This document shows positions 7,656 through 36,667 of a DNA stretch of 38,247 nucleotides, one piece after another (within the stretch, counting starts at the first letter, position 1; every line of letters starts with the position of its first letter). The notes under the pieces were generated by a model. That model worked only from the letters and a program-made list of their open reading frames with translations. It was not told the origin of the DNA and did no database searches. The translations under genes were made by a program, and so were the position numbers. The stretch comes from Candidatus Magasanikiibacteriota bacterium (lineage in GTDB: Bacteria; Patescibacteriota; Patescibacteriia; Magasanikbacterales; UBA922), in contig JAGOTR010000006.1 of NCBI GenBank assembly GCA_018061685.1, forward strand, positions 1 to 38,247. Reading direction: 5' to 3'.

Positions 7656-7783
7656 TATACGATGCATGGAACACGATGTTAAAAATTGGGATTAAGATTA
7701 AGAATAAGACTGAAATACGAATTTCAATCTCAGTCTTATTCTTAATTCAAAATTTTTGTGCTCCATGTTCCATGCATCGTATA
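7656..7783. repeat. Family B long palindrome, copy 1
   Basis: An 18-base perfect outer inverted repeat (TATACGATGCATGGAACA 7656-7673; complement 7766-7783) encloses a second inverted repeat, AAGAATAAGACTGA versus TCAGTCTTATTCTT. It fills the gap between the divergent MFS and dnaE genes. Related sequence occurs at 21400-21608, with fragments at 22217, 26938 and 30775. Confidence 0.88.
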
Positions 7784-14474: not shown

Positions 14475-14543
14475 TGTCATCCTGAACTTGTTTCAGGATC
14501 TCTTCAAATAATATTCAGATCCTGAAACAAGTTCAGGATGACA
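14475..14543. repeat. Family A palindrome, copy 2 (perfect arms)
   Basis: Arms 14475-14501 and 14517-14543 are perfectly complementary over 27 bases around a 15-base AT-rich loop. The element occupies most of the gap between tsaD and the helicase gene. Confidence 0.92.
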
Positions 14544-18021: not shown

Positions 18022-18075
18022 GTCATCTTGAAGCCAGCATTCGACCTGAGCTCACGCCGAAGGTTCAGGATGACA
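18021..18075. repeat. Diverged family A-like inverted repeat
   Basis: TGTCATCTTGAA (18021-18032) and TTCAGGATGACA (18064-18075) match the ends of family A with one mismatch. The centre is different (AGCCAGCATTCGACCTGAGC region), suggesting a decayed or distinct sub-type. Confidence 0.65.
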
Positions 18076-21013: not shown

Positions 21014-21397
21014 ATGTATTTATTCATCGATTTATCCGTACAAGACACTATTGCCCTCTCACTGTTGTCAATCAATCAAGAGGCCAAACATTTTGTGGCA
21101 CAAGAAAAAAATAAAGAATTACTTGCCTGTGTCGATACATTTTTATCTCAACACCATTTGAGCACCACCGATATTCAAGGCATTGCCGTGGTAGTAGGTG
21201 CGGGCAGCTTTACCAACACTCGCATCGGGGTGACCCTGGCAAATACCTGGGCCTATGTATTACATATTCCTATTGCAGCCGTATCTGTAGAAGAAGCCGC
21301 ACATATAGAAGAGGTGATACCAAAAATCACTGCACAGCCTATTGGCCAATATATTTCTGCCACGTATAGTGCGGAGCCGAATATTGGGAAAAAATGA
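21014..21397 (+). CDS. tsaB: Short TsaB-like protein (tRNA t6A synthesis partner of TsaD)
   Basis: A 127-residue protein with the TsaB N-terminal fold: LFIDLSVQDTIALSLL, a region matching LLACVDTFLSQHHLSTTDIQGIAVVVGAGSFTNTRIGVTLANTWAYVLHIPIAAVS. The GxGSFTxxRIG motif is diagnostic. Ordinary TsaB is about 220-230 residues, so roughly the C-terminal half is missing. The N-terminal part contains the TsaD-contacting helices, so a reduced functional protein is possible. The gene stops at the edge of a nested repeat array (from 21400), so truncation by repeat insertion is an alternative. No Shine-Dalgarno is seen. Confidence 0.78.
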   Translation: MYLFIDLSVQDTIALSLLSINQEAKHFVAQEKNKELLACVDTFLSQHHLSTTDIQGIAVVVGAGSFTNTRIGVTLANTWAYVLHIPIAAVSVEEAAHIEEVIPKITAQPIGQYISATYSAEPNIGKK

Positions 21398-21399
21398 TT

Positions 21400-21608
21400 G
21401 AACACGATACATGGAACATGGAGCATGGAACACAATAGCAATCAAGTAAGATTAGTTTGAATGTCATCCTGAACTTGTTTCAGGATCTGAACACTATAAA
21501 TTTAGAGATCCTGAAACAAGTTCAGGATGACAAATTTTAATCTTAGTCTTATTCTCAGTCTCAGTCTTTATTTTGTGTTCAATGCTCCATGTTCCATGCT
21601 GCCATGTA
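21400..21608. repeat. Family B palindrome, copy 2, interrupted by a family A copy
   Basis: The left part (CATGGAACATGGAGCATGGA near 21409) is the inverted complement of the right part (TGCTCCATGTTCCATG, 21583-21598). The right side also has TCTTAGTCTTATTCTCAGTC, related to the inner arm of copy 1. A perfect family A palindrome (21462-21532) sits in the middle. No gene occupies 21398-21625. Confidence 0.82.
21462..21532. repeat. Family A palindrome, copy 3 (perfect arms, nested)
   Basis: Arms 21462-21488 and 21506-21532 are identical to those of copy 2 (14475-14543), while the loop differs. It lies inside the family B copy 21400-21608. Confidence 0.92.
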
Positions 21609-21625
21609 TATAACCCCCCTTACCT

Positions 21626-22213
21626 ATGTCAAGAGAACTCATATTTGATATTGAAACCATTGGAGACATTCGTGATTACTCGCAACTAAAAATAACCGTT
21701 GTTTCTATTTTTGATTACGCCACTGATTCTTATGTTTCTTTTGATGAAACAAATTTATCGGGTCTCTGGCCGTATATTGAAAAAGCCGATCGACTCATTG
21801 GGTATAATAGTGATCACTTTGATATTCCGATTTTAAATAGATATTACCCCGGAGAACTCACCGCATTTCCGAGTTTGGATATGTTGAAAGTGGTAAAAGA
21901 CGTACTCGGCAAGCGGTATAAATTAAATGATTTAGCCAAAGCAACGCTCCAAATAGAAAAAAGTGCCGACGGGCTTCAAGCTCAAGAGTGGTATAAGCAA
22001 GGAAAAATTGACGAAATTAAAAAGTATTGTGAGCAAGATGTAAAGGTAACGAAAGAATTATACGAATACGGCCGACAAAATAAAATGTTGTATTACCCCA
22101 CGATTACCGGAGAAATTATGCCGTTTGCTGTGAATTTTGATCCGCCACCTGTGGCTGTTTCGGCAAGTGGTGCTGCTATTGGGAAGGGTATCAATTTGAC
22201 GTTGCCGTTTTAA
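21626..22213 (+). CDS. DEDD-type 3'-5' exonuclease-like protein (RNase H fold, YprB-like)
   Basis: A 195-residue protein. Its motifs match the DnaQ/RNase_H-like exonuclease superfamily: Exo I FDIETIGD (Asp8, Glu10), Exo II GYNSDHFDIPIL (Asp63/Asp66), and Exo III KYCEQDVKVTKELYEYG (Asp138 with a following tyrosine). All four acidic metal ligands appear present, so it is probably an active nuclease on DNA or RNA. It is annotated in related genomes as a polymerase elongation-subunit-like or YprB-type nuclease. Because the DnaE PHP proofreading site at 7841 looks dead, this could supply a proofreading-like activity, but nothing in the sequence links the two directly. It is followed by a terminator; no Shine-Dalgarno. 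Confidence 0.82.
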   Translation: MSRELIFDIETIGDIRDYSQLKITVVSIFDYATDSYVSFDETNLSGLWPYIEKADRLIGYNSDHFDIPILNRYYPGELTAFPSLDMLKVVKDVLGKRYKLNDLAKATLQIEKSADGLQAQEWYKQGKIDEIKKYCEQDVKVTKELYEYGRQNKMLYYPTITGEIMPFAVNFDPPPVAVSASGAAIGKGINLTLPF

Positions 22214-22236
22214 GACGAAAGATTGAGATTAAGAAT

Positions 22237-22267
22237 AAGACTGGGATGTACATCGCCAGTCTTTTTT
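22237..22267 (+). terminator. Terminator of the exonuclease gene built on a family B fragment
   Basis: AAGACTGG (22237-22244) pairs with CCAGTCTT (22256-22263) and is followed by a T-run; the loop contains the palindrome GATGTACATC. The left arm continues a family B-like stretch GATTGAGATTAAGAATAAGA (22221-22240). Confidence 0.82.
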
Positions 22268-28762: not shown

Positions 28763-28834
28763 TGTCATCCCCGCGAAGGCGGGGATCCACTCTTCAGCGA
28801 GAACGAGTGGATTCCCGCCTTCGCGGGAATGACA
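28763..28834. repeat. Family C palindrome, copy 1
   Basis: Arms 28763-28792 and 28805-28834 are nearly perfect complements (core ATCCCCGCGAAGGCGGGG) around a short loop. It lies between iscS and iscU, and its right end contains possible upstream ATGs in the iscU frame. A relative is at 36548-36667. Confidence 0.9.
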
Positions 28835-28861: not shown

Positions 28862-29542
28862 ATGAACACCCCAACCCCAACAACCAAACCCGCCGGTGCT
28901 GCTATTAAAGACAAACAAGGTGGCAGCTGGCTGTATACCGATGTGGTAAAAGAACATTTTTTTAATCCACAAAATATTTTAAAACACGGAGAAGAAGAAA
29001 CCTACCAGGCTGACGCCATGGGTCGTGTGGGTTCTCCCGCCTGTGGAGACGAAATGGTATTGTGGCTCAAAATTGATCCAAAAACAGAAATTATTACCGA
29101 ATGCAAATGGCAAACATTTGGTTGCGGTTCTGCTATTGCATCAACATCAATGCTTTCTGTGATGCTTACCGAAAATGGCGGCATGACGATTGCACAAGCA
29201 TTGGCAGTAAAACCACAACATATTATGGAGCGATTGGGCGGATTGCCAAACAGAAAAATTCACTGCTCGGTTCTTGGTGATAAAGCACTGCAAGGCGCGG
29301 TGAATCAATGGTTTCGGAATACCAATCAACATAACCGTGTGATGGTGTCTGGAAAAAAAGTAATTGACCCAGTGTTGAACATTACTGATCACGATATTGA
29401 AGAAGCCGTGCTTGAAGGCGCGATGACGCTTGAAGATGTACAAAAAAAATTAAAAGTAGGTGTGGCAAGTCCGGAGGCAATTCCTGAAATTGAGCAACTC
29501 ATCAGATTTTATTCAGATAAATATTACGGGGGGGCTGTGTAA
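28862..29542 (+). CDS. iscU: Fe-S scaffold IscU fused to a cysteine-less Bfd-like domain
   Basis: The N-terminal part is an IscU/NifU scaffold with its three ligand cysteines: GSPACGDEM (Cys61 with Asp63), FGCGSA (Cys88) and IHCSVL (Cys135), in the 226-residue numbering. After it, residues about 165-217 (KVIDPVLNITDHDIEEAVLEGAMTLEDVQKKL, then a SPEAIPEIEQLI end) align with the [2Fe-2S] Bfd-like domain seen in NifU. The four expected cysteines are replaced (by Asp, Val, Ser and Ala). The tail therefore keeps the fold but cannot bind the cluster. The start is uncertain: ATGs at 28829 and 28835 lie in or next to the palindrome, and ATG 28862 precedes a low-complexity Thr/Pro stretch. No Shine-Dalgarno. 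It lies in the Rrf2-IscS operon. Confidence 0.9.
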   Translation: MNTPTPTTKPAGAAIKDKQGGSWLYTDVVKEHFFNPQNILKHGEEETYQADAMGRVGSPACGDEMVLWLKIDPKTEIITECKWQTFGCGSAIASTSMLSVMLTENGGMTIAQALAVKPQHIMERLGGLPNRKIHCSVLGDKALQGAVNQWFRNTNQHNRVMVSGKKVIDPVLNITDHDIEEAVLEGAMTLEDVQKKLKVGVASPEAIPEIEQLIRFYSDKYYGGAV

Positions 29543-29556
29543 CTATCTGATTAGTT

Positions 29557-29662
29557 TGTCACTCCGAGCGGAGCGCAGCGGAGTCGAGGAGTTCAGTATC
29601 GTATTACGTTCCTGAACTCCTCGACTTCAGTCGGCTGCGGCCTCCTTTCGCTCGGAGTGACA
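29557..29662. repeat. Family D compound palindrome, copy 2
   Basis: TGTCACTCCGAGCG (29557-29570) pairs with CGCTCGGAGTGACA (29649-29662). Inside, GTCGAGGAGTTCAG (29583-29596) pairs with CTGAACTCCTCGAC. The element fills the iscU-to-DUF59 gap and shares its core with 13349-13399. Confidence 0.9.
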
Positions 29663-35743: not shown

Positions 35744-36564
35744 AAAATTTTTACATAACAACTCTTTTTCACCAAGGCTCTGGCAAACAAAACGAAGATC
35801 AACTTCTTGTGAATGATCCTGTATTTGCTGTATTTGATGGAGCAACCAGCTTGACCCCGTATACCAATGAGAAAGGGGAGAGTGGTGGGTATTTGGCTTC
35901 GTCAATTGCAAAAGAAACGTGTTCCACATGGAACGGTAGTCTCAAAAGTCGCTTTATAGAGGCAAATAATCGTATTGACCAGGCCATGCACGCTGCTGGT
36001 ATTGATACCAGTGATAGCGTGAATCGATGGGGGACGAGTGCTGTGGCTGTTCAGATTCGAGAAAATGAGGTAGAGTGGGCACAAATAGGCGATTCCCTCC
36101 TTATTGTCTGTTATAAAGATGGTTCACACCGGTTTTTTGTAGAAGGTTATGACCACGACCAGCCAACATTTGAAGAGTGGATGAGACTCAAAGCAGACGG
36201 AAAACAACGCATTACCTGGGAGGATGTATTGCCCATGATTCAAAACATACGACGGCAAACCAATAGCACATTTGGTATGTTGAATGGCGACCCTCGGGCA
36301 GAACAGTTTATTCATTCCGACACATTTCCACTTACCGGTGTTACCGATATACTGTTATTCACCGATGGATTATTTTTTCCAAAAGAAAATCCACTGGCAG
36401 AAGATGATTGGGATGCCTTTATTGCTGAATACAAACAGAATGGATTAGACGGGGTACAAGAATATGTACGAAGTCGAGAAATTGCTGATAGTTATTGCCA
36501 GAAGTATCCTCGGCTCAAGCAGCATGATGATATTGGCGCGATTGCAATGTCATCCCCGACTTGA
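35740..36564 (+). CDS. PP2C-family serine/threonine phosphatase
   Basis: A 274-residue PPM/PP2C phosphatase, probably Mg/Mn-dependent. Motifs: GSGKQNEDQ near residue 15, FAVFDGATSL (residues 29-38), WGTSAVAVQI, WAQIGDSLLIV, LLFTDGLFF and HDDIGAIAM near the C-terminus. The metal-site aspartates in FDGA, FTDG and DDIG are in place, unlike the degenerate domain at 18098. Its overlap with the glycosyltransferase gene (ATGA at 35740) suggests the two are co-expressed. The last residues (Ser-Ser-Pro-Thr) and the TGA stop are encoded by a family C palindrome (36548-36667). No partner kinase is visible in the window. Confidence 0.88.
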   Translation: MKNFYITTLFHQGSGKQNEDQLLVNDPVFAVFDGATSLTPYTNEKGESGGYLASSIAKETCSTWNGSLKSRFIEANNRIDQAMHAAGIDTSDSVNRWGTSAVAVQIRENEVEWAQIGDSLLIVCYKDGSHRFFVEGYDHDQPTFEEWMRLKADGKQRITWEDVLPMIQNIRRQTNSTFGMLNGDPRAEQFIHSDTFPLTGVTDILLFTDGLFFPKENPLAEDDWDAFIAEYKQNGLDGVQEYVRSREIADSYCQKYPRLKQHDDIGAIAMSSPT

Positions 36565-36667
36565 TCGGGGATCCACTCGTTCATTACAGTGCTTCGTTTG
36601 TATCCAAATAAGAACTCACTCATTTACATATATTGTGGATTCCCCCGACTGAGTCGGGGGAATGACA
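36548..36667. repeat. Family C palindrome, copy 2
   Basis: The left arm (TGTCATCCCCGACTTGATCG region, 36548-36576) and right arm (36635-36667) are nearly complementary around a 58-base loop. The loop resembles no other copy. It provides the stop codon of the phosphatase gene and fills the gap to the methyltransferase gene. Confidence 0.87.

Follow-up and report, generated by a model that had tools for sequence, protein, structure and literature searches.

A head-to-head pair of TGTC-tagged REP hairpins, probably inserted into an older palindrome, flanked by tsaB and a predicted exonuclease gene in Candidatus Magasanikbacteria

How did one perfect palindrome come to lie inside another, and does such nesting tell us that the repeats move? 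The question is raised by a short intergenic region in the genome (MAG; 851 kb, 63 contigs, 89.5% complete) of an uncultured ultra-small Ca. Magasanikbacteria host. The window, the whole 38,247-nt stretch of DNA that was analysed, is contig C18 of this genome. The repeats are located between tsaB (21014-21397, + strand; the best NCBIfam match was TsaB, with a score slightly below the model cut-off) and a gene at 21626-22213, also on the + strand, which is predicted from its sequence to be exonuclease-like and gave no matches to NCBIfam. The closest relatives found through this adjoining gene were likewise Ca. Magasanikbacteria, with a protein identity of ~73-74% at best.

An inverted-repeat search confirmed that a perfect family A palindrome (21462-21532) is enclosed by a family B palindrome, as had been proposed from the sequence alone. 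The inner repeat has 27-nt arms (21462-21488/21506-21532, 100%, 17-nt spacer) and the outer one 26-nt arms (21410-21435 on the + strand and 21573-21598 on the - strand; 96%, 137 nt apart), and dinucleotide shuffles gave a chance expectation of 0 matches for the A arm and for the B arm. The same 27-nt arms were found at 14475-14501/14517-14543, 15 nt apart, in a second family A pair (14475-14543) that is not nested, so the further claim of identical arms with different loops also held. In family B the repeated unit of an inverted array is the 7-mer CATGGAR (the heptamer array of the left arm reads CATGGAACATGGAGCATGGAACACAA), and in family C it is a TYANTC hexamer. A right half of family C, the hexamer array AATCTTAGTCTTATTCTCAGTCTCAGTCTT (21539-21568, +), matched other C copies, and a degenerate left half (21440-21461, +) matched them weakly (p 0.014-0.45 for this part alone). 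Because these remnants of a third palindrome lie between B and A, the nest is three-layered, B[C[A]]. The 215-nt composite folded into a single long hairpin of -58.8 kcal/mol, whereas shuffles averaged -19.25 (z = -13).

Every 27-nt A arm was found to be a hairpin of its own, composed of a TGTC tag, an 8-bp stem (ATCCTGAA/TTCAGGAT), a 5-nt loop CTTGT and a tail CT. In the left monomer (21462-21488, +) the tag occupies 21462-21465 and the stem 21466-21473 and 21479-21486. The right monomer (21506-21532, -) is the same hairpin with its tag outside, which makes the two a head-to-head pair around a spacer (21489-21505) unlike those of other copies. We compared 130 monomers from this genome and its relatives, for which only the tag, the first A, the GAA/TTC anchors and the loop length were used as criteria. 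Stem position 3 was paired in 123 of the 130, where 68 were expected from column composition, and position 5 in all 130 (113 expected). The tag was TGTC in 128 monomers and CGTC in 2, the search pattern itself requiring [CT]GTC.

The two stems of a pair were unlike in 36 of the 43 head-to-head pairs sampled in relatives (for example ATGCTGAA opposite ATCCTGAA), a fraction that is a biased estimate since part of the G020 and G056 regions had been chosen for their unlike arms. This choice has no bearing on the pairing within arms, and both stems were perfectly self-complementary in 30 of the 36. As the stems differ within a pair and yet each pairs with itself, the conserved unit is the single hairpin and not the pairing of arm with arm, and the two arms in the window match perfectly as a result of two like monomers. 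Selection is thus not on the pairing of one arm with the other. The unit was shown to be a hairpin of 25 nt whose TGTC tag is unpaired, maintained by pairing within the hairpin.

The sequence-only reading had proposed that all copies in the genome be collected. When repeats were gathered by pattern search, together with the stretches around the matches, 24 A arms were obtained, while the reversed control pattern gave 0. Most were in head-to-head pairs with a short variable spacer and identical or near-identical arms; unpaired single arms were present on contig C36 (two, both closed hairpins), at C41:12900 and at C52:7864. Within the window, a third family A pair with a diverged right arm (2342-2409) contains the stop codon and last codons (2342-2352) of the gene at 1108-2352. 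A second, CGTC-1/dRS3-like REP family, GCGAAGGC, shares the TGTC tag but ends in CCA and accounts for 21 arms in the genome; one of its pairs is at 28763-28834. Another TGTC-tagged pair, with other stems, is at 36548-36667. In two A pairs (on C52 and C54) the loop of one arm contains an extra palindrome, CTTCGGCGTGAGCTCAGGTCGAA, and at all 3 places where this palindrome occurs in the genome it forms the loop of a REP hairpin (window 18040-18062, C52:13647-13669 and C54:2547-2569). Exact A arms were also matched 11 times in viral contigs, in scattered contexts.

The structure of the monomer agrees in its features with the CGTC REP superfamily, which includes rickettsial RPE-4/RPE-6 and neisserial dRS3 (Di Nocera, De Gregorio and Rocco 2013, PMC3733652). 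Members carry a CGTC or TGTC tag, an 8-9 bp stem starting with AT, a 4-5 nt loop and a short unpaired tail that is mostly CCA; they are mostly head-to-head pairs, some copies lie within genes, and a dedicated transposase is not known (PMC3733652). Family A shares the tag, the AT-starting 8-bp stem, the 5-nt loop and the head-to-head arrangement, but its tail here is CT where that of the superfamily is mostly CCA. Across the family A copies the tail was mostly CT or CC; CCA occurs in the GCGAAGGC family of this genome and on a Sphingobium plasmid, where an identical 25-nt monomer with a CGTC tag forms a head-to-head pair. In the comparison with the superfamily, pairs are mostly like-armed in this genome and unlike-armed in relatives. 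REP pairs within longer palindromes have been described in three organisms, H. neapolitanus (CGTC-1), A. variabilis and T. roseum (both GTAG families) (PMC3733652). Taken together, the matching features, the identical Sphingobium monomer and these published cases assign the repeats to a known class, in a host group, Patescibacteria, that the text of PMC3733652 does not mention. In the literature searched, no paper joined REPs with Patescibacteria. What is newly added is the presence of outer palindromes free of REPs and a hot spot in rsmI.

The gene rsmI encodes the 16S rRNA C1402 methyltransferase (TIGR00096). In 8 of 69 rsmI orthologs an in-frame REP pair was present at one site, between the SDPG and PIPG motifs (G020 (L358), G022 (L333), G029 (L331), G036 (L334), G050 (L336), G056 (L335), L150 and L159). 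The inserts comprise several unrelated hairpin sequences, with an A-type pair in G020, and all eight have ATGACA or ATGACG as the right end. The left end was recognisable (TGTCAT/CGTCAT or equivalent) in 7 of the 8, and diverged in G029 and G050. Among the ~60 orthologs without a REP, most were empty at the site and a few had short or non-REP inserts. On the rsmI tree, built with the inserted region left out, the 8 insertions required 7 changes, at least 3 of which were forced by well-supported branches, and occupied and empty alleles were found in pairs of genomes from the same genus (G036 versus G021, G050 versus G045). Judged from these sequences, the occupied and empty alleles demonstrate that REP pairs of the TGTC/CGTC tag class insert precisely, as units and at a recurrent position. 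The rsmI site, which unrelated REP pairs have entered in frame several times, offers matched occupied and empty alleles for study.

The claim that the elements spread as units was thus upheld, by the precise in-frame pairs set against empty sites, same-genus pairs included, and by the outer palindromes that occur without a REP. The likeness to "MITE- or REP-like" elements was borne out in its second half, by the TGTC hairpin pairs, and was not supported in its first. Bacterial MITEs are, as family A is, short, non-coding and dispersed inverted repeats, but no target-site duplication was found for family A. At the junctions where a duplication had been predicted (21458-21466 and 21528-21536) none longer than 2 bases was found. 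Over 59 REP pairs, direct repeats were neither longer nor more frequent than in random flank pairings, and the junctions of these pairs showed no sharp target motif.

The order of nesting was examined through the outer palindromes. B[C] palindromes free of REPs were present at four other loci of the genome (C10, C36, C47 and C52), and a B palindrome on C46 was occupied by a REP pair from the other family, not A. The B[C] copies have a common order and asymmetric linkers, which indicates that B[C] was copied as a unit. Both flanks of the focal pair match the REP-free copies, the left C part alone weakly; because this half is degenerate, the exact sequence before insertion is not readable. REP-free outer palindromes have been found for T. 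roseum, as here, but not for A. variabilis or H. neapolitanus (PMC3733652). In five relatives that conserve the order of tsaB and the exonuclease gene, the spacers were 10-75 bp and contained no palindrome. From the REP-free copies, the C46 palindrome and the matching flanks, the nesting probably arose by insertion of a REP pair into an older B[C] palindrome, and the REP-free copies make the order "palindrome first, REP second" testable.

We consider it fairly likely that the whole locus is explained by a TGTC/CGTC-tagged REP pair that was inserted at the apex of an older B[C] palindrome. The order and asymmetric linker common to several copies of B and C would also be expected if the whole B[C[A]] were one repeat copied as a block by segmental duplication, in which case the nesting would be uninformative on the movement of A. 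However, no other A inside B[C] was found in the genome, the remaining A pairs occur by themselves amid unrelated flanking DNA, and a different REP family is contained in another B, so block copying is very improbable. Alternatively, the outer palindrome may have grown later around the REP pair, through template switching at the hairpin and inverted duplication of the flanks. Long hairpins provoke template switching, and the palindromes outside REP pairs are unlike between genomes (G036 versus G000), as later growth would have it; against this, REP-free B[C] exists at the four other loci, and we regard such growth as unlikely.

The remaining alternative does without transposition, and attributes the identity of the arms to gene conversion among dispersed copies or to selection on a long RNA hairpin with a role in termination or mRNA stability. 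It agrees with the mostly identical or near-identical arms of the A pairs in this genome, and with the location of the composite between co-directional genes, a setting where REPs are usually transcribed (PMC3733652). It is at odds with the unlike arms of most pairs in relatives and with the REP pairs inserted in the coding DNA of rsmI. Moreover, terminator prediction gave no site across the composite, and all Rfam matches over the hairpin were to microRNA families and far below gathering scores, as a result of the hairpin shape; one marginal sRNA match lay elsewhere, away from the composite. This explanation is quite unlikely.

We also asked whether nesting exceeds chance. When the complementarity of flanks was scored for the 59 REP pairs, the focal pair reached 24 and a pair in G036 (C29:11780-11861) reached 32, compared with a 99.9th percentile of 14 for random flank pairings; the outer palindrome of the G036 pair differs from the focal one. 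A score of 24 was reached by 0.13% of random intergenic points in relatives. The excess has p ~0.003 with the focal case that prompted the analysis included and is weak without it, and p ~0.05 is obtained at the higher rate seen within the window itself. The idea that REP pairs generally lie within palindromes was rejected, as the 2 of 59 far above random flank pairings are a minority. Two further REP pairs were located between half-REPs. A preference of REPs for hairpin loops is thus suggested, not established. It is doubtful, though conceivable, that TGTC REP pairs of Patescibacteria insert by preference where an extruded hairpin offers its loop (B[C], other REPs, the rsmI spot), build nested hairpins in this way and owe their movement to some nuclease distinct from RAYT.

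A REP-associated tyrosine transposase (RAYT) had been named as a possible mobiliser, and was sought with the profiles PF01797 and NF047646. Neither profile matched in the own genome (0 matches; 89.5% complete), and a relative with 21 A arms and 98% completeness (G056) likewise had no RAYT or Y1 match. Among the relatives, PF01797 was matched in 20 of 59 genomes and NF047646 likewise in 20 of 59, and RAYT presence set against family A gave 7/13 versus 13/46 (p = 0.11, not significant). The tested Y1 proteins of relatives were of IS200 type at ~150 aa, and the longer ones were RAYT-like, with scores on either side of the family cut-off; at the eleven RAYT-like genes examined in relatives no flanking TGTC REP hairpins were found. 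RAYT was therefore rejected as the mobiliser, having no match here, without significant correlation with family A and without flanking TGTC REPs. The family resembles the REPIN/RAYT system of Pseudomonas and E. coli (PMC3116915, PMC8266576) in having two inverted REPs with a spacer, in being non-autonomous and in its hairpin with an unpaired tetranucleotide. It differs in the tag, GTAG there and TGTC here, in the own genome without a RAYT match, and in the RAYT-like genes of relatives, which are not flanked by TGTC REP hairpins. As many pairs occur in compact Patescibacteria genomes with no detectable RAYT/Y1, the search for the enzyme of CGTC REPs is narrowed. With low confidence, we prefer an HUH enzyme that acts in trans or has been lost over an enzyme that went unrecognised. 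As a separate observation, one relative (G021) had 27 Y1_Tnp matches, many of them split at contig ends, which suggests that an element multiplied recently and thereby fragmented the assembly.

According to the explanation that we favour, two short CGTC/TGTC-tagged REP hairpins, arranged head to head (an HH dimer), make up the inner palindrome. This pair would have inserted at the apex of a B[C] already in place, a dispersed repeat that exists also without a REP. Movement might have proceeded via single-stranded DNA, by an HUH/Y1-type nuclease that acts in trans or is no longer present. Recognition may rely on the tag and hairpin and leave the spacer to drift, and this would account for loops that differ between identical arms. 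The outcome would be a DNA or RNA hairpin between tsaB and the predicted exonuclease gene, for which a separate host function is not required.

Several related repeats were noticed along the way. Family C hexamer arrays without B were present in the window at 7694-7746 and at 22219-22244, the latter just 3' of the exonuclease-like gene and ahead of a hairpin that terminates in a run of T. A long imperfect palindrome (CGGAGCGCAGCGGAGTCGAGGAGTTCAG...) occupies 29569-29639, after the gene ending at 29542. In relatives, the family B heptamer array was found in frame within genes of G025 (L097, L101, L104, L107), G006 (L098) and G022 (L096, L103), which are tsaB-, mnmA-, polA-, ksgA-, grpE- and Mur-ligase-like and would encode peptides such as MEHGAWNMEQ. 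The Mur ligase gene of G022 (L103) contains, besides the B peptide, apparent in-frame REP-like stretches (CEERGTSDEAIQ...LLTPRNDS). In the grpE-like genes, the array was found in the same region in two genera.
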